Shown here: piece after piece, positions 1,200 to 13,447 of the stretch
Numbering within the stretch: the first letter of the stretch is position 1
How the letters are laid out: the number at the start of each line of letters is the position of its first letter
Assembly (NCBI GenBank): GCA_016185125.1
Contig: JACPOC010000041.1
Span: 1 to 64,000 of the forward strand
From: Bacteroidota bacterium
GTDB taxonomy: Bacteria > Bacteroidota > Bacteroidia > B-17B0 > Aurantibacillaceae
Direction of reading: 5' to 3'
DNA: 64,000 nt
The notes under the pieces: model-generated
Seen by the model: the letters and a program-made list of their open reading frames with translations, nothing else
Databases searched by the model: none
What the model was told of the DNA's origin: nothing
Position numbers and translations under genes: made by a program

Positions 1200-2092
1200 A
1201 AAAATATTTATTTTAATTCATGGCTGTTTAATTCTCAATCATGTTTATCCACAACAATGTCCATCTTCATGTATTCAGCCGAATCTTTCATTAAGTTGTA
1301 ATAATAATATTTTTTGCGATCCTGCAACCTTGCCGCAGGACGTGTATGATAATAACTCCAGATCAGTCGTAAAAATTCTAAATTCTGATAACGAAGTAGG
1401 TACCGGAACACTATTACGCCAAGCGTTTTCTAATGGGGATGATAATCAACAACAAAATATAATAATTCCAGCAAGGCATGTTATTCATAGTGGCTCTTTA
1501 GGTTTGGAGCCATTAACAGATTTAAATCAAATGAAGTTCTATTTTAATTATTCAAATCCAGATTGTAATAATCCAAGAAAATGTATCGTACAAAAGTTGT
1601 AGATATGTATTAACAGGCGCAATTCTTATCGAGGAAAACTTACTTCATGATATAGCCATTTTAAAACTTAAACAACCTATTCCGCCGCATTTTAAGCCGT
1701 TTTATAGCGGTTGGACTGCTGTTCCACCGCTGTTTAGTGCAAATTCCTTCAATATCCACCATCCCGCTGGTGATATAAAAAAAATAAATAATACTTTTTC
1801 ACCTTTTATTCAAGAATTAATAATTCCTATACCACGTTATACTGTGCAATGGGTTAACGGCCTAACCCAACAAGGTTCATCAGGATCAGGATTGTATAAT
1901 ACAAATAAAAGATTATTTATATGGCATAGTGGCGCGCATCGCCAAGCAATTTTTTTCCTGAAACCATCTTTTTGCTTGCGTAAGATGCCTCCTTCTTCGG
2001 CATCACAATCTGAATATAAAATCATTAAGATTGCTACAAACCTTTGGTTGTTTGCAAGGAGGCTTTTTGCTGCCAAAATTTATAATATCTGA
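1189..2092 (+). pseudogene. Trypsin-like (S1) serine protease, frameshifted and truncated
   Basis: The gene starts with an export signal (MIIKKIFILIHGCLILNHVYPQQ). Frame 1 carries SVVKIL and IIPARHVIHSG, which supplies the catalytic His, then stops at 1602. Frame 2 continues without a break from about 1592: YVLTGAILIEENLLHDIAILKL supplies the catalytic Asp, NIHHPAGDIKK resembles lysyl-endopeptidase-like members, and QGSSGSGLYN supplies the Ser. One extra A in the run at 1592-1595 would join the frames. After about residue 250 the sequence stops looking like a protease: the C-terminal strands expected after the Ser are replaced by unrelated sequence reaching to the aroF stop. ORFs 1189-1602 and 1844-2092 of the track are pieces of this gene. 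A sequencing error could explain the frameshift but not the altered 3' end. Confidence 0.75.
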
Positions 2093-3081
2093 AGAACCGT
2101 ATTAATTTTTTTAATTAGTTCTTCCGATTCTAAAAAATTTAGAGTTTGTTGTCCGTCAGAAAAAGATTCTTCGGGCTTTTCGTGCACTTCGTAAATAACG
2201 CCGTCGCAACCGCTCATTAAGGAAGAAAGAGTGAGCTTAGGTACATAACTTCTAACTCCTACACCGTGCGAAGGATCTGCAATAACAGGCAAATGCGTTT
2301 TATCTTTTAAAACCTGCAAGGCGTTAATATCAAATGTGTTTCTGTAAGCGGTTTCAAAAGTACGAATGCCTCTTTCGCAAAGTAACAAACGTTCGTTTCC
2401 TTTACTGAAAATGTATTCGGCAGAAAATAAAAGTTCTTCAATAGTTCCGCTTAATCCGCGTTTAATCATTACCGGTTTATCTACTTCTCCCAAAGCATCG
2501 AGCAAATTAAAATTTTGCGAATTACGTGCGCCTACCTGAAATATATCTACGTAAGGAAGCATTTCTTTTATCTGAGATTCCTGCATTACTTCGGTAATTA
2601 TTTTAATGCCATAAGGTTTACAAATAGAGTACATCATTTTTAAACCCTCTATACCCGTGCCTCGAAAAGCATAAGGAGAGCTGCGCGGTTTATATACGCC
2701 GCCGCGCATTATCTTAATATTATTTTTATGAAGATGTTGGGCAACTTTTACAACCTGCTCTTCGCTTTCAATAGAGCAGGGGCCGGCCATTACTACGGGT
2801 GTCTTTCCGCCAATAATAATGCCATCGCCCAAATGAATTTTTGTGTATTCTGTTTTCCATTTACGGCTTACTAATTGATAGTTGTCAGAAACTATATGCA
2901 CATCTTTTACTCCGGCTAAATGGCCTAAGCTTCTGATATCAATTTCTTTTTTACCTATGCAAACCAGGTAACGGTCAAATTGTGTTTTTACTTCTGTTAC
3001 AGAAAATTTATTCTCTGCTAAAACTTTTTCTACTTTGGCATAATCTGCCTTGGTAATAGTATTATTTAATTGAATGATCAT
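2080..3081 (-). CDS. aroF: 3-deoxy-7-phosphoheptulonate (DAHP) synthase, type I-beta
   Basis: This enzyme condenses phosphoenolpyruvate and erythrose 4-phosphate to DAHP, the first shikimate step. Residues 1-75 form the ferredoxin-like regulatory domain seen in many type I-beta enzymes; the barrel follows with PVVMAGPCSIESEEQ at about 95, KPRSSPYAFRG near 133 and ADPSHGVG near 270. The length (333) fits this class. The start overlaps the end of trpA by 20 bases, and the gene is the last of the trp operon, so it would be expressed under tryptophan attenuation. In known enzymes the N-terminal domain mediates feedback by Phe or Tyr; the effector here cannot be read from the sequence. The C-terminus abuts the decayed protease on the other strand. 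Confidence 0.95.
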   Translation of the reverse strand: MIIQLNNTITKADYAKVEKVLAENKFSVTEVKTQFDRYLVCIGKKEIDIRSLGHLAGVKDVHIVSDNYQLVSRKWKTEYTKIHLGDGIIIGGKTPVVMAGPCSIESEEQVVKVAQHLHKNNIKIMRGGVYKPRSSPYAFRGTGIEGLKMMYSICKPYGIKIITEVMQESQIKEMLPYVDIFQVGARNSQNFNLLDALGEVDKPVMIKRGLSGTIEELLFSAEYIFSKGNERLLLCERGIRTFETAYRNTFDINALQVLKDKTHLPVIADPSHGVGVRSYVPKLTLSSLMSGCDGVIYEVHEKPEESFSDGQQTLNFLESEELIKKINTVLQIL

Positions 3082-3862
3082 AAATGCCGGTTTTAATTTC
3101 TTTAATAAATTCTATTGTTGTTTTTTCAATGTTTGTAGAGTTGCTGATTCTTCTGATGTACTCGGAGCCTATGATGGCACCGTTGGCCAAGGAACAGGCC
3201 TGATTAAATGTTTTTGCATTGTTTATTCCAAAGCCAATGAGTATTTTATTTTTCAATTTCAGTTTCGTAATCTCTTTAATGCTTTGCTCCGTAGCCTTCA
3301 TTGGATCTTGTGTTTTACCTGTGGTTGAATTGGAGGAAACCAGATACACAAAACCTTTACTGAGTTTATCTATTTGTACTATTCTTTTTTTATCGGTAAG
3401 CGGACTAATTAAAAATACAGCGTGAATATTGTATTTATCTGTAAACTGTTTATGGCTTTTTTCAAATTCGCCGAGTGGGAGGTCGGGCAATATAATACCG
3501 TCAATGCCGCAAACGTTACATTGTTTATAAAACTCTTCTATACCATATTGCAACACAGAATTTAAATATCCCATTAATATAACGGGCTTTTCGCTTATTT
3601 CTCTAAGATTTTTTAATTGTTCAAATAAGAGTTTTAATGTCATGCCGTTTTCTAAAGCAATGGTGCTGCTTTTTTGAATGGTTTCACCGTCGGCCAATGG
3701 GTCGGAGAAAGGAATGCCGACTTCTATCAAATCAACTTCCGCTTTATCTAAAGCCTTAATAACACTGAGTGTATCATTCAATTTAGGAAATCCGGCGGTG
3801 GTGTAAATGGAAACAATATTGCTTGCTTTAGTCTTAAAAAGTTTATCAATTCTGTTATGCAT
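3062..3862 (-). CDS. trpA: Tryptophan synthase alpha subunit
   Basis: Cleaves indole-3-glycerol phosphate to indole and glyceraldehyde 3-phosphate; indole is channelled to TrpB in the alpha2-beta2 complex. The 266-residue length is normal. [15 protein letters not shown] at about 44-58 contains the catalytic Glu and Asp, and the phosphate-binding end of the barrel is seen in GFGINNAKT and [12 protein letters not shown]. The start overlaps the trpB stop region by 8 bases and its own end overlaps the aroF start by 20, so translation of the three genes is probably coupled. Part of the trpEGDCFBA-aroF operon. Confidence 0.97.
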
Positions 3863-5060
3863 TTTCTTTTTTATTTAAATAATTAATAAAAGTATCAAGG
3901 TCTTTATCGCCACGGCCGGAAAGATTTACTACTACCACATCATTGGATTTAAATTTTATTTTTTCCAACGCTGCTAAAGCATGCGCACTTTCTAAAGCAG
4001 GAATGATGCCTTCTTTTTTAGTGAGGTTCATACCTGCAATAAGAGCTTCTTCGTCTGTAGCGCTTAAATAACTTGCTTTTTTTGTTTCATGCAAAAACGA
4101 ATGCAAAGGACCAATGCCCGGATAATCAAGGCCTGCGGAAATACTGTGAGGCTCGGTGATTTGACCGTCGTTATTCTGTATCAAAAATGTTTTACTTCCA
4201 TGAATAATTCCCGGAGTTCCTATGTTTAATGTTGCAGCGGTGTAACCGGTGTCAATGCCTTTTCCTGCGGCTTCAACGCCTATTAATTTTGTTTTATCAC
4301 TATCAATAAAATGATAAAATGCCCCTGCGGCATTGCTTCCTCCTCCTACACAAGCTATCACGTAATCCGGAGAAGGTTCGCCGGTTATTGATTTAAGCTG
4401 CTGTTGTATTTCGGCACTGATAACGGATTGAAATTTGGTAACCAGATCGGGGTAGGGGTGAGGGCCAACAACAGATCCAATTAAGTAATAAGTATTTTCG
4501 GTATTGTTCATCCAGTCGCGTATGGCTTCATTGGTAGCGTCCTTTAAAGTTTGACTGCCCGATAAAACAGGAATTACGGTGGCGCCGAGCATTTTCATTC
4601 TACTAACGTTTGGCGCTTGTCGCTCCACATCTTTTTTGCCCATGTACACAAAACATTCTAACCCCATTAAGGCGCAAACAGTTGCTGTGGCCACACCATG
4701 CTGTCCCGCGCCGGTTTCGGCTATTATTCTTTTTTTGCCAAGATGTTTGGCTAATAACACCTGGCCTATTGCATTGTTTATTTTATGAGAACCCGTATGA
4801 TTAAGATCTTCACGTTTTAAAAATATCTGTGCTTTAAATTGCTCTGATAAATTAGCGGCGAAGTATAAAGGCGTTGGCCTTCCTACATAATTTTTTAAAA
4901 GCGATTCAAATTCTTTTCTGAAAGCTTTGCCGGCAATAATGGAATTATATTTTTTATTTAATTCATTAACATTATTATATAAAATTTCGGGAATATAGGA
5001 GCCCCCATAATTACCGTAATAGCCATCTTTATCTATATGATTATTTAACTTCTTTTTCAT
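3855..5060 (-). CDS. trpB: Tryptophan synthase beta subunit
   Basis: PLP enzyme that joins indole and serine to make tryptophan. I place the start at the internal Met ([16 protein letters not shown]) rather than the track start at 5090, because TrpB proteins begin close to the DGYYGNYGG segment. This gives 401 residues, the usual size for TrpB1. [10 protein letters not shown] contains the PLP-binding Lys, ETGAGQHG and GCVxGGSN-like VGGGSNAAG bind substrate and cofactor phosphate. With this start the gene overlaps trpF by 20 bases and trpA by 8. It pairs with the adjacent trpA product. Confidence 0.96.
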
Positions 5061-5670
5061 TCTGTAATTGATTGATAAATTGTTTAACAAGTTCTGTGTT
5101 TTTCAATCCCGGTTCACTTTCAAATCTTGAGTTAATGTCAATGCCAAAGAGGGAAGGAATGTTGAGGTTTTTAATTTCATTGGCATCCTCTAAAGAAATT
5201 CCTCCGCTTAAAAAGAAAGGCTTTTTTAGGTTGTAAGTGTTTAAAATTCGCCAATCGAATTTTTTTCCGGAGCCTCCGTGTGTTGCGGTTTTAGTGTCGA
5301 ATAAAAAGTAGTCAACGCTGTCTGAATATTTTTGAAGAAGAGAAAGGTCTAACGTGTTTAATACAGGGAATGCCTTAATAACTTGAATTTGCTTTTTTAA
5401 AGTGTTACAAAATTCAGGACTTTCATTGCCGTGTAATTGAACAAGGTTTAGCTGATACATTTTTATTTTATTTAAAATATCATCCAAAGAAGCATCTACA
5501 AACACGCCCACTTTTTTAGCTGTATTAATGTTTTTAATTTCAGGAAATAAATTATCACCGACGTATCTTGGCGAAGACTCATGGAAAATCAATCCCACGT
5601 AATCTGCACCAAGCGATATGATGCTTTGGAGGTTGTTGTAATATTTTAAACCACACACTTTAATTTTCAT
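5041..5670 (-). CDS. trpF: Phosphoribosylanthranilate isomerase
   Basis: Isomerises phosphoribosylanthranilate to CdRP, third step of the tryptophan branch. The track start at 5679 adds MFL; the Met at 5670 ([11 protein letters not shown]) gives the conserved family N-terminus, whose Cys is the usual general base, so I prefer it (209 residues). [16 protein letters not shown] and [13 protein letters not shown] are typical of the barrel; GIDINSRFE supplies the C-terminal phosphate region. It is a stand-alone protein here, not fused to TrpC as in enterobacteria. It overlaps trpC by 11 bases (20 with the upstream start) and trpB by 20. Confidence 0.94.
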
Positions 5671-6478
5671 TAAGAACAACTTTTTGCACTTGTTTTTCGA
5701 TGAGATCGTTAATAAATTGCTTGCACACTAAATGCGGTTCGGCGTGCTTCATAAAGTTAGAGCCAATTAAAAAGCCTTGATACCCAAATTGTTTTAGGTA
5801 GATAATGTGTTCAGGCGTTTGAATTCCGCTTTCTGAAATGCGTATAATGTTTTGGGGAAGTGATTCGCTTATTTTAGCGGAATGTTCAATGTTAATTTTC
5901 ATTGTATTTAAATCGCGGTTATTAACCCCAATTACATCTACTTTATCGTATATTTTTTCCAGTTCAGAGGCATCATGAATTTCAAGAATCACTTCCATTT
6001 CTAATGAATGCGCCAGGTCGGTAAATTCTTTAATGCTTTCTTTCGAAAGAACTGCTGCGATTAATAAAACAACATCCGCACCAATAGATTTCGCTTCAAT
6101 GATCTGATAAGCATCTATTGTAAAATCTTTTCGAAGAATTGGGCAGAAATTGTATTTCCTTGCTGTAGTAAGATCGGTATTGCTTCCCCCAAAAAAATCT
6201 TTATCTGTTAAAACTGATAGGGCACTAGCGCCTGCCTGCATATAGCCTATTGAAATTTTTTCAACGTTCGCATATTTGTTAATGTCGCCAATAGAAGGAG
6301 ATTTCTTTTTTATCTCTGCTATAATTCCGTTTTTATCCGTACGCAATAAGTATTTTTTTAATGAAACCGCTTTTGACTTATAGTATAAAGAACTTTCCAG
6401 GAGCTGTAACGGGTATAAACTTTTGTTTTTTTCAACCTCTGTTTTTTTGTGGTTGATAATGTCTGTTAAAGTAATCAT
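5660..6478 (-). CDS. trpC: Indole-3-glycerol phosphate synthase
   Basis: Converts CdRP to indole-3-glycerol phosphate with loss of CO2 and water. 272 residues, a typical monofunctional TrpC. IIAEIKKKSPSIG carries the catalytic Glu and Lys pair, ILRKDFTIDAYQI the second conserved Lys-Asp strand, EVILEIHD, GVNNRDLNTM and RISESGIQTPE follow in the expected order along the (beta-alpha)8 barrel. Only one base separates the trpD stop from the trpC start. Middle gene of the trp operon. Confidence 0.96.
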   Translation of the reverse strand: MITLTDIINHKKTEVEKNKSLYPLQLLESSLYYKSKAVSLKKYLLRTDKNGIIAEIKKKSPSIGDINKYANVEKISIGYMQAGASALSVLTDKDFFGGSNTDLTTARKYNFCPILRKDFTIDAYQIIEAKSIGADVVLLIAAVLSKESIKEFTDLAHSLEMEVILEIHDASELEKIYDKVDVIGVNNRDLNTMKINIEHSAKISESLPQNIIRISESGIQTPEHIIYLKQFGYQGFLIGSNFMKHAEPHLVCKQFINDLIEKQVQKVVLNEN

Positions 6479-6479
6479 A

Positions 6480-7466
6480 TTAATTGTTTATTAATTTTTT
6501 TAAAAGTTCAAAAGCTTTTTTAGATTCGATGGCCTCCTTACAATAATTTATAGCTTCCTGCAAATTAACTTCAGGTTTATGGCACAAATAGGCGAGCGCG
6601 CTGTTGATAACCACTACATTTTTTTGTTCGCGCGTGCATTCATTTTTTAAAACGGAAATAAACATATCTCCGGCCTCGGCAATTGTGTTTCCTGAGGCGA
6701 TGGATGCTCCTTTTATTGTTTTAAAGCCAAGTTCTTCGGGTTGTATTAATTGTTCTTTTTTGTTGCTGTATAATTTAAAGGGAGAAGTTAAGCTTACTTC
6801 GTCATAACCTTCGGTGGAGTGAACGATGGTGTAATTTAATTTTTCTTTCTGTAAATGATAATTATACAAACGTGCGGTTTCTAAATTAAATACACCCACA
6901 TATCTGCCTGAAATATTTGCCGGGTTAACCAATGGTCCCATAATATTAAAGAAAGTTCTTACGCCCATTTCTTTTCTAATGGCGGTAACTTTTTTTAAGG
7001 CTGGATGAAAAAGTGGGGCATGCATAAAACAAAAATTATAATTATTAAGATCAGCATTTAGTTCGGCGCTGGTAGTTTTAAATTGATAACCCAAATGTTT
7101 TAAAACATCGGAAGAGCCGGATACAGAACTTGATGCATAATTGCCGTGTTTAGCAATTGGAATTCCTGCCGCCGCAAGCACCAATGCTGAGAGGGTGGAA
7201 ATATTAAACGTATTTTTACCATCTCCTCCGGTGCCGCAAACATCAATGCCTTGTTTATCGAGTTTAACAGGAATACTAAGATCAAGCAAAGCATTTTTAA
7301 ATCCTGAAAGTTCTTCGTTGGTTATTGGCCGTGAAATATAAAAAGCCAAAGCCGCTGAAATCTGTGTGGCATTCAGTTTTTCTTCTGAAATATCTGTTAT
7401 AAGATCATAACTTTCTTTTTCGTCGAGCGAAAACCCTAATGAGAGTTTTTCTAATTTGTTTTTCAT
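6480..7466 (-). CDS. trpD: Anthranilate phosphoribosyltransferase
   Basis: Transfers phosphoribose from PRPP to anthranilate. 328 residues, the normal length for the separate enzyme (no TrpG fusion). The PRPP and Mg-binding glycine-rich loop GTGGDGKNTFNIST lies at about 79-92; AKHGNYASSSVSGSSDVL and the MHAPLFHPALKKV segment are further family signatures. The N-terminal helical bundle (residues 1-70) is intact. Ten bases separate it from trpG upstream and one base from trpC downstream. Confidence 0.96.
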   Translation of the reverse strand: MKNKLEKLSLGFSLDEKESYDLITDISEEKLNATQISAALAFYISRPITNEELSGFKNALLDLSIPVKLDKQGIDVCGTGGDGKNTFNISTLSALVLAAAGIPIAKHGNYASSSVSGSSDVLKHLGYQFKTTSAELNADLNNYNFCFMHAPLFHPALKKVTAIRKEMGVRTFFNIMGPLVNPANISGRYVGVFNLETARLYNYHLQKEKLNYTIVHSTEGYDEVSLTSPFKLYSNKKEQLIQPEELGFKTIKGASIASGNTIAEAGDMFISVLKNECTREQKNVVVINSALAYLCHKPEVNLQEAINYCKEAIESKKAFELLKKLINN

Positions 7467-7476
7467 GGTTATTATT

Positions 7477-8043
7477 CTAATTTTTTAACCAGTTTCTGAT
7501 CATCAATTCGCCGTATTCTGAAAGAATGGATTCAGGATGAAACTGCACCCCGCGAACATTTAGTGTTTCGTGCTTTAAAGCCATGATATTATTTTGCGCA
7601 TCTACAGCTGTTACAGATAAACAAGAAGGAAGGTTTTTATTATTAACGATCCACGAATGATAACGCCCCACGGTAATTTGATTTGGACAATCCTTAAAAA
7701 TATCCTGCTGCTGAATGATTTTAATGGGCGTTGCCTTTCCATGATACACTGTTTGGGGCTGCATTAAATTTCCTCCGAAAGCTTCTCCTATTGCTTGCAA
7801 TCCCAGGCAAACTCCGAAAATGGATTTTGTTTTAGAGTAAGTTTTGATCAGCTCCGGCATAATTCCCGCATCCTTTGGTACGCCCGGGCCCGGAGATAAA
7901 AGTATTTTATCGAATTGATCAACATCCGCCAAAGAGATCTTATCATTTCTATGAACTTCAATTTTAATATCGCTTACTTCTTCCACTAGCTGAACAAGGT
8001 TGTAAGTAAAACTATCGTAATTATCAAGCAGTAGCAGTTTCAT
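7477..8043 (-). CDS. trpG: Anthranilate synthase glutamine amidotransferase subunit
   Basis: Class I glutamine amidotransferase that hydrolyses glutamine and feeds ammonia to TrpE. The start MKLLLLDNYDSFTYN is the family N-terminus. LSPGPGVP, the nucleophile elbow GVCLGLQAIGEAFGG (Cys about 79) and the His-Glu pair in VQFHPESILSEYG complete the triad. 188 residues. It overlaps trpE by 20 bases, which fits stoichiometric, coupled synthesis of the two subunits. The same protein could also serve p-aminobenzoate synthase if the genome has no separate pabA; this cannot be judged here. Confidence 0.96.
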   Translation of the reverse strand: MKLLLLDNYDSFTYNLVQLVEEVSDIKIEVHRNDKISLADVDQFDKILLSPGPGVPKDAGIMPELIKTYSKTKSIFGVCLGLQAIGEAFGGNLMQPQTVYHGKATPIKIIQQQDIFKDCPNQITVGRYHSWIVNNKNLPSCLSVTAVDAQNNIMALKHETLNVRGVQFHPESILSEYGELMIRNWLKN

Positions 8044-9463
8044 GTTGCTTTAATTTTTGGTTGTTATTTATTTGTTTGGCTTGCTCAATCGCTTTTTGCA
8101 GAACACTTATTTTATGATGCACTTCATTATTCTCACTTTCTTCACTCGAAGAAATAACCACACCGGCACCGGCTTGATAATACAAAGTATAATCTTTACT
8201 TAAGAAGGTACGGATCATAATAGCGTGATTGAGTTGATCATCGTGAGAAATAAAACCAATACATCCTCCGTAAAATTCGCGCGAACAATTTTCGTAACCA
8301 TCTATTAATTGCATAGCTCTGTGTTTTGGCGCGCCCGATAAAGTTCCCGCAGGAAAGGTTCCGGTTAAAATATCAAAAGGGTGAATGCCTTTTCTCAGTT
8401 GGCCTTTTACTTTACTTACTAAATGTATAACGTGCGAGTAAAATTGTGTCTGTTTTAAAAAAGCAAGTTTCACTTGTTTACAATATTTGTTCAAATCGTT
8501 TCGCGCAAGGTCAACCAGCATCATGTGTTCGGCCTGTTCTTTTTCATCAGCTAATAATTCGTTTGCGCGCAATTCATCTTCATGATCGTTGCCTGTTCTT
8601 TTATAAGTGCCGGCAATGGGATGAATTTCGGCTACATTTTTATTTACTACTAATTGCGCTTCGGGTGAAGAACCGAAAATTTTGTAGCTCCCGAGATCAA
8701 AATAAAATAAATAGGGGGAAGGATTTATGTTTCGTAAAGTTCGATACACATTAAATTCATCGCCTTTAAAATTCTGACTGAAACGTTTAGAAAGAACCAG
8801 TTGAAAAACATCGCCATTAGCACAGTTCTTTTTTGCTTTGGCTATCAAAACTTTAAATTCATCATCAGAATAATTTACAGTAACATTTTCTTCCGCCTCA
8901 AAGGAGTGATATTGCGTTTTGCCGTATTTAATGTACTGCTTTATGTCATCAATTTGCTCTTTACTTTGTGTTTCGTTTTCGGCGTGGCTGGCGATATATA
9001 AATTACAATTGTTATGGTCGAAAATTAAAATAAGACTGTAAACGGCATAAAATAATTCAGGAATATGTAATGTTTTGTTTTTCTTAAATTCAATATCTTC
9101 AAAATGCGGAATAGCATTGTAACCTGTGTAACCGAACAAGCCTGCGTAGCTGAATTTATAATCAAAGTTTTTAAACTCAAATTGCTTTTTAAAATCCTTA
9201 AGTTCATCTAAAATATTTAATTTATTGGTGAGAATATTTTCGGAGGAGCTTTGATTGTTAATTTTTTTGGTGAGAATATTATCCTGTAAAGTTATTTCTG
9301 CAATTGGATGAAGACCTATGTACGAAAAATGTCCTTCTTTTGAATTATAATCAGAACTTTCCAATAGCAAAGGCTTCAAATATTTATCTCTGAGTTTTAG
9401 ATACAGTGAAACCGGAGTTTCTGTATCAGCCATTATTTTTTCTACCTCGGTGTATAATTTCAT
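8024..9463 (-). CDS. trpE: Anthranilate synthase component I
   Basis: Makes anthranilate from chorismate and ammonia. The N-terminal LLLESSDYN with KEGHFSYIG contains the LLES element that binds tryptophan in feedback-inhibited TrpE, which argues for TrpE rather than PabB. The chorismate-binding C-terminal half shows FGSSPEAQLV, PIAGTYKR, DLARNDLNKYC, GTLSGAPKHRAMQLI and YQAGAGVV. 479 residues, usual size. It is the first structural gene, 14 bases downstream of the attenuator T-run, so both enzyme activity and transcription appear tied to tryptophan supply. Confidence 0.96.
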   Translation of the reverse strand: MKLYTEVEKIMADTETPVSLYLKLRDKYLKPLLLESSDYNSKEGHFSYIGLHPIAEITLQDNILTKKINNQSSSENILTNKLNILDELKDFKKQFEFKNFDYKFSYAGLFGYTGYNAIPHFEDIEFKKNKTLHIPELFYAVYSLILIFDHNNCNLYIASHAENETQSKEQIDDIKQYIKYGKTQYHSFEAEENVTVNYSDDEFKVLIAKAKKNCANGDVFQLVLSKRFSQNFKGDEFNVYRTLRNINPSPYLFYFDLGSYKIFGSSPEAQLVVNKNVAEIHPIAGTYKRTGNDHEDELRANELLADEKEQAEHMMLVDLARNDLNKYCKQVKLAFLKQTQFYSHVIHLVSKVKGQLRKGIHPFDILTGTFPAGTLSGAPKHRAMQLIDGYENCSREFYGGCIGFISHDDQLNHAIMIRTFLSKDYTLYYQAGAGVVISSSEESENNEVHHKISVLQKAIEQAKQINNNQKLKQHETATA

Positions 9464-9476
9464 TTTACTGTTGTTT

Positions 9477-9510
9477 AAAAAAAAAGTCCGCTGTGTGATA
9501 CAGCGGACTT
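9477..9510 (-). terminator. trp attenuator: intrinsic terminator in the leader
   Basis: On the minus strand a perfect 10-bp stem, AAGTCCGCTG / CAGCGGACTT, with a 7-base loop is followed by seven further T. It lies between the leader peptide and trpE. Upstream leader RNA can make competing pairs with its 5' arm: GACUU (9514-9518) with AAGUC (9506-9510), and ACAGC (9540-9544) with GCUGU (9500-9504). The latter bases are also used in part by a hairpin GUUCUCA/UGUGAAC (9543-9564) next to the Trp codons, giving the mutually exclusive set expected for ribosome-controlled attenuation. I recall an Rfam motif for Bacteroidetes called Bacteroid-trp of this general kind. Confidence 0.9.
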
Positions 9511-9536
9511 ATAAAGTCTTTTAGAATATAAATAAT

Positions 9537-9599
9537 CTAGCTGTTCACAACGTTTGCTGAGAACCACCACCATGAATTATTTACAAACTGTTTTTTCAT
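9537..9599 (-). CDS. trpL: trp leader peptide with three tandem Trp codons
   Basis: ATG at 9599 (minus strand) opens a 20-residue peptide, MKKQFVNNSWWWFSANVVNS, ending in TAG. Three consecutive TGG codons are very unlikely by chance and are the hallmark of tryptophan attenuation leaders. The peptide is too short for the ORF track. Stalling at the Trp codons when charged tRNA-Trp is scarce would leave ACAGC (9540-9544) free to pair with the terminator arm; reading to the stop codon would cover it and let the terminator form. The ATG lies only a few bases from the predicted transcription start, so it may be translated from a nearly leaderless RNA. Confidence 0.93.
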   Translation of the reverse strand: MKKQFVNNSWWWFSANVVNS

Positions 9600-9608
9600 T
9601 TCCGAAAG

Positions 9609-9638
9609 CAAATTTACGCAATATAATTTAAGTTGCAA
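9609..9638 (-). promoter_or_regulatory. Bacteroidota-type promoter of the trp operon
   Basis: Read on the minus strand the sequence is TTG, then exactly 19 bases, then TAAATTTG. This matches the -33/-7 consensus of the Bacteroidota primary sigma factor (TTTG, N19-21, TAnnTTTG). The start of transcription would fall near 9601-9604, just ahead of the leader ATG at 9599. The promoter sits between the queG stop (9659) and the leader, so queG read-through could also enter the operon. Confidence 0.8.
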
Positions 9639-9658
9639 AAAAAAGATAAAAATTTTGT

Positions 9659-10582
9659 TTAGGGTTTAATGAATTTGAGATTCCTTTTTAAGCCTTTGTA
9701 TTTGGTACGTTTAACCGCTGAATGTTTAAAGATAAGATTAAACGTTTCTTCTGTCAAGTCCTGCCAATCTGATTCAGAAAAATTAAGTGCGGGTGAATTA
9801 TTAAACAAGGGCTCGTGATGCGGTTTACTAAAGCTGTTCCAAGGGCAAACATCCTGGCAAACATCGCAGCCAAAAGCCCAGCCATTCATTTTATCCTTAA
9901 ACTCCGTAGGAATTTCATCCTTTAATTCAATGGTTAAATAACTGATGCACTTACTGCCATCAACTATATAAGGTTCCACAATGGCACTGGTTGGGCATGC
10001 GTCGATGCAGCGGGTGCAGGTGCCGCAATAATCTTTTATAGGGCCGTCGTATTCTAATTCCAAATCAATAATTAATTCGGCAATAAAAAAAAAGGAGCCT
10101 AATTGTTTATTAATAAGGTTAGAATTTTTAGCCACCCATCCCAAGCCGCTTTTTGCCGCCCAAGCCTTATCCATCACAGGCGCGCTATCTACAAAAACAC
10201 GCCCGTTAATATTGCCTATTTTTTCTTTTAAAGAATATAAAAATTCGTGCAGTTTAGCTTTAATCACTTCGTGGTAATCTTGTCCGTAAGCGTATTTACT
10301 AATTTTTGGAACGTTTGCTGTTTGATGTTTTTCAGGATAATAATTATATAATAAGGAAATGACGGATTTGGCATCATCTACGAGTAAACGAGGATCAAGG
10401 CGTTTATCGAAATAGTTTTCCATGTATTTCATTTCGCCGTGATGTTTGTTTTTCAGCCATTGTTCCAGGCGAGGAGCTTCTTGAGCAAGAAATTCCGCTT
10501 TAGAAATTCCGCAAAAATCAAATCCTAAAGCCCTGGCTTCGGCTTTAATAATGTCGGAATATTTGGAATTAGCAATCTTCAA
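9659..10582 (-). CDS. queG: Epoxyqueuosine reductase
   Basis: Cobalamin-dependent reductase that converts epoxyqueuosine in tRNA to queuosine, the last step of that modification. 307 residues. The N-terminal part is the DUF1730-like cobalamin domain ([38 protein letters not shown]). Two [4Fe-4S] ligand sets follow: [12 protein letters not shown] near 186 and [11 protein letters not shown] near 240, with the last Cys of each set supporting the other cluster. It lacks the C-terminal HEAT repeats of longer homologues, as is usual in this phylum. It lies directly upstream of the trp promoter but is unrelated in function. Confidence 0.93.
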
Positions 10583-10817: not shown

Positions 10818-12173
10818 ATGAAGACACCAAATCCAATTATTGACACCATCGTTGAAACACAAACCAATTTCGTAAACAATTGGATGGATTCAGCAAAGAA
10901 AATGCAATCAGCATTTAGCAATGGTAATGTGGCGCACGAGGGGCAAACAATTTACAAAGAGTATTTAGATAAGCAAATGAGTATCTTAAACAGCATGAAG
11001 GATTCTTCTGCTAAATTATTTAACGGATCAAGCGAAAGCAATCCGCAAGAGTTTTTTAAATCATGGTTTAATCAGCAAGCGGCTCACGCAAAACAAATGA
11101 CTGATTTTAACCAAAGTATTTATAACAGCTTCAGTAATTTTGGCAAGCCTGCTCAGGATTATATGAGCAATTTTGGGCAAATGAATACTTCATACACGAA
11201 TATTTATAATTCATGGATGAACACTTTAAACAATTCTTTTGATTCAATGTCAAAGAACATGAATGGCGGATTTAATAAAGATATTTTCAGCAATTTTATT
11301 CAGGGCAACCAAATGTATGCTAAAATGCAGGAATTTTTTGGCCCAATGGCTGATGCCATTCAAAAAGGTAAATTTAACATGGAGGCTTTTAAAAATCATT
11401 TTACTGCCGAAAGCTATGCAAACCTTACCAAGCAAATGTTTGGTAACATGTATAACGGAGGTTCTGTTAAAGAAGTTTATGATAATGGCATGAAGCAAAT
11501 TCATAATTTCTTTACAAGCCAAAATGGTTTAAGCAAAGAATATTTTGCGCAGGTTCAAACAATGGCTAAGGAATTTCCTTCCATGTTTAACGGTAATGCA
11601 ACAACTTTAAAAGATTTCTACGGACAGATTAACAATGTTTTTGGAAAAACTTTTGAGCCTTTGTTAAAATTAGCTACTCCGGGTAAAGAAAAAGAAAACG
11701 TTGAAGCTACAATAGCTTTAATGGATAAGTTAGCAGAATACAGCATCAAACAAGCAGAATTACAAGCGTTTTTACAAACTACAACTCAAAAAAGTATCGA
11801 GAAAGTAGCACAGCAATATGCAGAGAAGTTTAACACTCCTTTAGCATTAACATCTCCTCCAAAGCCGGAAGAAATGTATAGCGAGTGGATTAAAACTAAC
11901 GAGCAGGTATTTGCCGAATTATTTGCCAGCGAAGAATTTAGTAAAGTTAAAGGTGAAGCAATTAACCTTAGCATGGATGTAAAAAAGCATTTCGAAAAGC
12001 ACTTTGAGCAAATGTTTCAAAGCTACCCTGTAGTATTTAAATCGGAAGTTGAAGAATTACAAAAAACTATTTACGAATTAAAAAAACAAGTTAAAGATTT
12101 ACAGTCAAAGTCGGTGGCTACTCCGGTATTTGAAACAGCTGACGACGATAAGTCAAAAAATCGTAAAAAATAA
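10818..12173 (+). CDS. phaE: PhaE-like subunit of class III PHA synthase
   Basis: PhaE is the partner subunit that PhaC needs in class III polyhydroxyalkanoate synthases. The C-terminal half fits the family: a long helical region, SYPVVFKSEVEELQKTIYELKKQ near 400-425 (the usual RSEVDEL-type motif) and a terminal coiled coil. At 451 residues it is clearly longer than the roughly 360 of purple sulfur bacterial PhaE. The extra N-terminal part is rich in Asn, Met, Phe and Gln (NPIIDTIVETQTNFVNNW is phasin-like) and may bind the granule surface. The adjacent phaC supports the call. It is separated from phaC by its own hairpins and terminator. Confidence 0.85.
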   Translation: MKTPNPIIDTIVETQTNFVNNWMDSAKKMQSAFSNGNVAHEGQTIYKEYLDKQMSILNSMKDSSAKLFNGSSESNPQEFFKSWFNQQAAHAKQMTDFNQSIYNSFSNFGKPAQDYMSNFGQMNTSYTNIYNSWMNTLNNSFDSMSKNMNGGFNKDIFSNFIQGNQMYAKMQEFFGPMADAIQKGKFNMEAFKNHFTAESYANLTKQMFGNMYNGGSVKEVYDNGMKQIHNFFTSQNGLSKEYFAQVQTMAKEFPSMFNGNATTLKDFYGQINNVFGKTFEPLLKLATPGKEKENVEATIALMDKLAEYSIKQAELQAFLQTTTQKSIEKVAQQYAEKFNTPLALTSPPKPEEMYSEWIKTNEQVFAELFASEEFSKVKGEAINLSMDVKKHFEKHFEQMFQSYPVVFKSEVEELQKTIYELKKQVKDLQSKSVATPVFETADDDKSKNRKK

Positions 12174-12180
12174 TTCAGTC

Positions 12181-12212
12181 TCTGCATAAAGTTCTCTTAA
12201 ACTTTATGCAGA
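12181..12212 (+). repeat. Perfect hairpin after phaE
   Basis: A perfect 13-bp stem, TCTGCATAAAGTT / AACTTTATGCAGA, with a 6-base loop begins 7 bases after the phaE stop. No T-run follows, so it is not a classical terminator; it may protect the phaE 3' end from exonucleases in front of the terminator at 12236. Confidence 0.6.
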
Positions 12213-12235
12213 TTCTTATAGCTAAGAACCCTAAG

Positions 12236-12273
12236 AGGCCGTCCAATTTTGTGTTTGTGGGACGGCCTTTTTT
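12236..12273 (+). terminator. Intrinsic terminator of phaE
   Basis: A 9-bp stem, AGGCCGTCC / GGACGGCCT, is followed by T-rich sequence (TTTTTTATT). It lies about 60 bases past the phaE stop and separates phaE from phaC, implying that phaC is mostly transcribed on its own. Confidence 0.85.
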
Positions 12274-12316
12274 ATTGACTTATTTAGGGCAAATAAAATA
12301 TTTAATAAATTGCTAT

Positions 12317-12324
12317 TAAGTTTG
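12317..12324 (+). promoter_or_regulatory. Putative -7 element for phaC
   Basis: TAAGTTTG matches TAnnTTTG, 73 bases before the phaC ATG and downstream of the phaE terminator. A clear -33 TTG at the right distance is missing, so support is partial. Confidence 0.45.
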
Positions 12325-12397
12325 AGCATTAAATTATAAATTCACAGAAAGAATATCTATTTCTGATAAAAAACAAAATTTAAATAAAGAAATTATT

Positions 12398-13447
12398 ATG
12401 GAAACTAATTTGCTGCGTGAAATGACTGACATGAGTCAGAAAATTTTAAAAGGATACGATACCCTAAATGAAATTGAGGAAGTTGATATTGCCTCCACAC
12501 CTAAAACAGAGGTTTATAAAGAAGATAAGCTTACCCTTTATCGCTACAACCGCGATACAGAAGCAACATACAAAACGCCGGTTTTAATTGTTTATGCTTT
12601 GGTTAACACTTATAAAATGTTGGATCTGCAGCCCGACCGCAGTTATATTAAAAATCTTTTAAATGCCGGAATGGACGTGTATTTGATAGATTGGGGTTAC
12701 CCAACTAAAGGCGACCGTTTTTTAAGCATGGATGATTATGTAAACGGATACATTAATAATTGTGTTGATCAAATCAGAAAAAAGCACCGCATTGATTCAG
12801 TTAATATTTTAAGTATTTGCCAGGGCGGAACGCTAAGCGTTATTTACGCATCTTTATTTCCTAATAAAGTAAAAAATTTAGTAACGCATGTAACGCCCAT
12901 TGATTTTGATACGAATGATGGTTTATTATTTCGTTGGAGTAAAGATGTTGATTTTGATAAGTTGGTAGATGCTAACCATGGTTTAATTCCTGGAGGATAT
13001 TTAAATCAGAGTTTTGATATGCTTAAGCCAATGATGAAAGTTCAGAAGCAACAAGCGCTTGCTCATAGCTTGGAAGATAAAGGAAAGCTGCTCAACTTTC
13101 TTCGCATGGAGCGTTGGATAAGTGAAAGCCCGGATCAGGCGGGAGAATGTTTCCGTCAGTTTATGAAAGACCTTTATCAAAAAAATAAATTGGTAAAAGG
13201 TGAACTGGAAGTTGGCGGTAAAAAAGTTAATCTTAAAAATTTAACTTGTCCTTTATTAAATATTTTCGCTACCGAAGATCATCTTGTTCCTCCTTCGGCA
13301 ACAAAGCCTTTAAATGATCTTGTAGGAAGCAAGGATAAAGAGCTTTACAGTTTTAAAGGCGGGCATATTGGTGTGTTTGTAGGCGGAAAATCTCAAAAAG
13401 AACTAGCTCCGGCAGTGGCAGAATGGTTAAAGAAGAGGGATAAGTAA
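12398..13447 (+). CDS. phaC: Class III poly(3-hydroxyalkanoate) synthase, PhaC subunit
   Basis: Polymerises (R)-3-hydroxyacyl-CoA into storage polyester. 349 residues, the size of class III PhaC (about 355) rather than class I or II (about 560-600). The alpha/beta-hydrolase fold has the nucleophile elbow LSICQGGTLS near 150 with Cys in place of Ser, as PHA synthases require; the Asp follows in FATEDHLVPP near 300 and the His in KGGHIGVFVG near 330. DVYLIDWGYP near 105 is a further family mark. The elbow starts with Ser where most members have Gly. It depends on the PhaE product encoded upstream. No phaA, phaB or phaJ is nearby. Confidence 0.93.
   Translation: METNLLREMTDMSQKILKGYDTLNEIEEVDIASTPKTEVYKEDKLTLYRYNRDTEATYKTPVLIVYALVNTYKMLDLQPDRSYIKNLLNAGMDVYLIDWGYPTKGDRFLSMDDYVNGYINNCVDQIRKKHRIDSVNILSICQGGTLSVIYASLFPNKVKNLVTHVTPIDFDTNDGLLFRWSKDVDFDKLVDANHGLIPGGYLNQSFDMLKPMMKVQKQQALAHSLEDKGKLLNFLRMERWISESPDQAGECFRQFMKDLYQKNKLVKGELEVGGKKVNLKNLTCPLLNIFATEDHLVPPSATKPLNDLVGSKDKELYSFKGGHIGVFVGGKSQKELAPAVAEWLKKRDK

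Follow-up and report, generated by a model that had tools for sequence, protein, structure and literature searches.

Background

The Bacteroid-trp RNA motif (RF01692), described by Weinberg et al. in 2010, is a cis-regulatory element of Bacteroidetes (PMC2864571). It has been reported upstream of the trp operon of Flavobacterium psychrophilum (PMC6414381), and transcript maps of this species suggested attenuation by a leader peptide (PMC9723704). In the literature that we searched, no experiment was found that tests ribosome-mediated attenuation in Bacteroidota. Outside the phylum, peTrpL and rnTrpL of Sinorhizobium meliloti are of interest in that they act in trans (PMC7298713).

Here we describe an element found in 64,000 nt of a Bacteroidota bacterium genome (contig JACPOC010000041.1, positions 1 to 64,000), which is referred to as the window. 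The element very probably controls the trpEGDCFBA-aroF operon by ribosome-mediated attenuation of transcription, a reading for which the leader ORF, its Trp codons, the exclusive pairings and their conservation are drawn from sequence and comparison.

Results

Leader layout and operon

The minus strand of the window carries an operon in the order trpE-trpG-trpD-trpC-trpF-trpB-trpA-aroF, preceded by a short leader ORF containing adjacent Trp codons and by a series of potential hairpins (Table 1). The sequence-only reading of this DNA had proposed a 20-codon leader with three Trp codons, a hairpin at 9564-9543 and a terminator at 9510-9484, and all three were located there on the minus strand. 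The spacer between the leader stop codon and the terminator is 26 nt, the terminator reads AAGUCCGCUGU AUCAC ACAGCGGACUU followed by the T-run, and about 20 bases separate the terminator region from the trpE start (9463). Elsewhere in the window, class III polyhydroxyalkanoate synthase genes occupy 10818-13447, with PhaC scoring above the curated cut-off and a PhaE-like protein below the cut-off.

Table 1 Features of the predicted attenuator, its operon and second attenuators in relatives (positions are those of the window unless a contig is named)
Feature	Coordinates	Strand	Basis
Candidate -33 box TTTG, at -35 to -32 from the predicted start	9636..9639	-	Prediction from sequence; consensus PMC7366714
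Sigma-A type -7 box TAAATTTG (TAnnTTTG)	9609..9616	-	Sequence; box position PMC9723704
Leader peptide ORF, MKKQFVNNSWWWFSANVVNS and stop, 20 codons	9537..9599	-	Sequence and relatives' leaders
Extended 1:2 stem, A/U-rich base, Trp codons in 5' side	9523..9589	-	Folding; covariation
Trp codons 10-12, three consecutive (TGGTGGTGG)	9564..9572	-	Sequence and relatives' leaders
Apical hairpin of 1:2 stem, GUUC..GAAC	9564-9543	-	Folding; covariation
Antiterminator segment 2, UGUGAACAGC, ends at leader stop codon	9540..9549	-	Alignment, folds
Small inner hairpin GACUU-UAU-AAGUC, possible within antiterminator	9506..9518	-	Fold; not conserved in relatives
Antiterminator segment 3, GCUGU-A-UCACA (terminator 5' arm and loop)	9494..9504	-	Alignment, folds
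Intrinsic terminator stem-loop (3:4), 11 bp	9484..9510	-	Folding; covariation
T-run 3' of terminator	9483-9477	-	Sequence
trpE, first structural gene of the operon	8024..9463	-	Gene search
trpG, trpD, trpC, trpF, trpB, trpA, aroF (DAHP synthase), tightly packed	2080..8043	-	Gene search
Second Trp-rich attenuator ahead of trpFBA, G003	L152:8364-8497	-
Second Trp-rich attenuator ahead of trpFBA, G029	L149:1454-1583	+

Folding and competing pairings

Predicted folding energies are -17.7 kcal/mol (z -6.8) for the terminator segment and -37.4 kcal/mol (z -5.7) for the whole leader, and in neither case was as low an energy reached in 200 shuffles. The leader can form 1:2, 2:3 and 3:4 pairings, the last being the intrinsic terminator, and the antiterminator is incompatible with both the 1:2 hairpin and the terminator. 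An antiterminator had been proposed from the sequence as the 5-bp pairing ACAGC/GCUGU together with GACUU/AAGUC. The comparison supports an antiterminator, but one stronger than this: UGUGAACAGC and GCUGU-A-UCACA form about 10 bp with a single bulged A at -11.3 kcal/mol, versus -5.2 kcal/mol for the 5-bp version, and an unbulged form is present in relatives. The GACUU/AAGUC pair can form inside the antiterminator here but is not conserved in relatives. With an assumed ribosome footprint placed over the Trp codons and the terminator still incomplete, the fold was the antiterminator (-16.2 kcal/mol), and with the modelled ribosome at the stop codon the terminator alone formed. Once transcribed, the full terminator is predicted to be more stable than the antiterminator; the mechanism would therefore rely on kinetics, as is general for attenuators of the ribosome-mediated type.

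Conservation and covariation

The regions upstream of trpE were compared in related genomes and in 80 named Bacteroidota contigs. A short leader ORF with two to three adjacent Trp codons was present at a similar distance from trpE in 98 of 102 Bacteroidota regions, and an intrinsic terminator was detected by a simple scan in 88 of these 98, a few of which are weak matches. The order trpEGDCFBA is nearly universal in the examined trpE loci. A terminal aroF is shared by the window's genus with several other lineages, among them Saprospiraceae- and Cytophagales-type contigs, and is absent from the Flavobacteriaceae loci examined. Among 36 congeners searched, trpE was found in 10, all of which carry the leader element (most of these leaders also being in the training set of the clade model described below). 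The 26 congeners without trpE gave one match at threshold, in G010, which was an ordinary terminator; second matches in G010 and G012 were likewise ordinary terminators.

Covariation was assessed in 13 diverse leaders of the window's clade. Thirteen pairs of the 1:2 stem and three pairs of the terminator were changed on both sides, and for each structure this was matched by 0 of 500 shuffles. The antiterminator was paired in register in 89.7% of cells, versus 26-49% when slid, and two of its pairs were changed on both sides (e.g. AUAAACAGC/GCUGUUUAU in L018). Shuffle support for the antiterminator is modest (paired cells were reached in 108/500 shuffles and changed cells in 7/500) because segments 2 and 3, with a nearly invariant core, vary little. 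In most members, segment 2 either overlaps the leader stop codon or lies directly next to it. RNAalifold by itself recovered the terminator only, probably because MAFFT shifts the A/U-rich 1:2 stem. Conservation, covariation and folds together support the earlier proposal of a trp attenuator with three competing pairings, and the Trp codons and hairpins, whose absence from close relatives had been named as the observation that would count against it, are conserved there.

These data also bear on a simpler explanation, in which the hairpin merely terminates transcription constitutively, or marks where the queG transcript ends, and the Trp-rich ORF has arisen by coincidence. The gene queG does lie upstream of the leader on the same strand, ending at 9659, and the terminator is strong; this explanation is nevertheless very unlikely, given that the Trp leader recurs in the 98 regions above, including loci without an upstream queG. 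The conserved 1:2 and 2:3 pairings, and the -7 box just ahead of the leader start, argue further against a constitutive terminator.

Relation to Rfam families

The whole window gave no match in an Rfam scan at gathering scores. Kinship to Bacteroid-trp had been suggested in the sequence-only reading, and a covariance search with RF01692 agreed with it: the match is full-length (model positions 1-131), on the right strand, with the leader ORF and Trp codons in register, and is the best place in the genome (E 0.0062 in a local search, E 0.015 in the whole genome), at a score of 37.2 bits that lies below the cut-off of 49. This cut-off was passed by none of 60 related genomes and by 9 of the 13 Bacteroidota loci, mostly flavobacterial, that were tested. 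The Trp_leader family RF00513 gave 32.1 bits in the window, below its cut-off of 41, and 42.4 bits, above it, in a relative (L010).

A covariance model (R1) built solely from the window's clade scored 119.7 bits at the window and 36 bits at the next place in the same genome, where its two strongest other matches were ordinary terminators on inspection. R1 identified leaders ahead of trpE in 58 of the 80 named loci at E <= 0.01, one of which (L033) is in the training set, and in RF01692-positive loci it found the same sites as RF01692, which ties the element of this clade to accepted members by homology. Based upon the full-length RF01692 match and the recovery of RF01692-positive loci by R1, we conclude from these sequence comparisons that the window element shares common descent with Bacteroid-trp and represents a divergent homologue of a known class, with an antiterminator that has diverged.

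In other phyla, tryptophan operons are controlled by T-boxes or TRAP, and one could suppose that tryptophan or tRNA-Trp is sensed directly here (by a riboswitch or T-box), or that a TRAP-like protein binds the leader, leaving the ORF incidental. We consider this extremely improbable, as the Rfam scans of the window gave no T-box or riboswitch match and the parts that are conserved, namely the Trp codons, the position of the stop codon and the 1:2:3:4 pairing, suit translation.

Predicted promoter and short 5' end

To our knowledge, Bacteroidota mRNAs are without Shine-Dalgarno sequences. Of 95 leaders (counts ignore kinship), 83 have a TAnnTTTG or TAnnTTGG box whose end lies 4-20 nt ahead of the start codon, and 85 have a box within 45 nt, versus 4.7% of control windows; among other long ORFs of these loci, a distance of 21-30 nt is the most frequent. 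In F. psychrophilum the -7 box occupies -12 to -5 of mapped starts (PMC9723704). From this position, transcription in the window probably starts about 9604, with a 5' UTR of about 5 nt, and the predicted 5' UTRs of trp leaders (L009-L112; kinship ignored) fall into two groups, 0-6 nt (43 leaders) and 11-16 nt (40 leaders), and the range between them is empty. For mapped transcripts, the median 5' UTR is 24-32 nt, and about 4-6% are leaderless or nearly so (PMC9723704, PMC7366714).

Termination would be predicted to release a short RNA whose ORF is nearly leaderless, similar to that of S. meliloti, and cis attenuation might be accompanied by action in trans of the leader peptide or released leader RNA, as for peTrpL and rnTrpL. 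We regard such an addition as quite unlikely, since, apart from the Trp codons, the leader peptide differs widely in sequence from lineage to lineage, which gives no indication of a trans function.

Split operons and tandem attenuators in relatives

In the nearest relative, G003 (TrpE 91% identical), trpEGDC-aroF is separate from trpFBA, and the latter has its own leader (MNSQFSLNLFWWPKVVKNTRGQWH, then stop) and terminator. The split operon of G029 similarly has a leader (MKTHLNTNLFWWPADSYNREHWH, then stop) ahead of trpF-trpB. The second leader peptides of G003 and G029 have FWWP in common and end in WH and the stop codon, such that a third Trp codon adjoins the stop. In G003, a gene for kynureninase, an enzyme of tryptophan breakdown, follows directly after the separate trpFBA (L152:4330-5661, minus strand). 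In a Flammeovirgaceae contig (L105), trpE is preceded by two complete attenuators arranged in tandem, at 8608-8727 and 8833-8947 on the plus strand. The separately placed trpF genes of G041 and G048, taken up in the search for further Trp leaders, were rejected as split operons; trpD and trpC are directly upstream, so that the separation is a contig break.

Entry into the shikimate pathway

The presence of aroF in the operon had led to the suggestion that shikimate entry would respond to tryptophan alone. This does not follow, as a second DAHP synthase lies outside the operon on another contig (G000:C5:176134-177276; L031:1393-2535), a 380-aa fusion with chorismate mutase. No Trp leader or attenuator was seen by eye in the 300 bases upstream of the fusion gene. 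A third match in the DAHP synthase search (108 bits, 282-aa frame) is probably a KDO8P synthase. Tryptophan control would thus apply only to the aroF copy inside the trp operon.

Discussion

The ribosome-mediated attenuator proposed for the window would operate as follows, where stalling, the start site, termination and the response to tryptophan are what we infer. RNA polymerase would start about 5 nt upstream of the leader ORF, and the transcript would be loaded with a ribosome at once. When charged tRNA-Trp is scarce, the ribosome would stall on WWW and cover segment 1, allowing UGUGAACAGC of segment 2 to pair with segment 3 and transcription to run into trpE. When tRNA-Trp is charged, the ribosome would reach the stop codon and cover segment 2, the 3:4 terminator would form, and transcription would stop. 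With no translation, the 1:2 pairing would likewise free the terminator to form.

Two generalizations are put forward jointly, with about even odds that both hold: that trp leaders of Bacteroidota as a rule start at or no more than about 16 nt from the 5' end, with near-leaderless initiation built into the attenuator, and that the element is duplicated as a whole, being present twice in split operons and in tandem arrangements. The split-operon and tandem cases would serve as natural tests. The proposed scheme offers a consistent picture of possible attenuation in a phylum lacking Shine-Dalgarno initiation, and the element shows that the Bacteroid-trp class reaches, with a changed antiterminator, lineages missed by the Rfam model at its cut-off.

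Among known systems, Bacteroid-trp has the same long hairpin, leader ORF and Trp codons in register. Here segment 2 (GAACAGC) pairs with the terminator 5' arm (GCUGUUC), whereas most Flavobacteriaceae have a stop-codon segment (GUCGUGA) with complementarity to the loop and 3' arm (UCACGAC). E. coli trpL (RF00513) has the same logic and order of 1:2, 2:3 and 3:4 pairings, but contains two Trp codons versus three in the window leader, which also differs in its Bacteroidota-type promoter and a predicted 5' UTR of about 5 nt. S. meliloti rnTrpL resembles the window element in having its leader ORF at or near the transcript 5' end (PMC7298713), although the two belong to different phyla and trans action is known for rnTrpL only.
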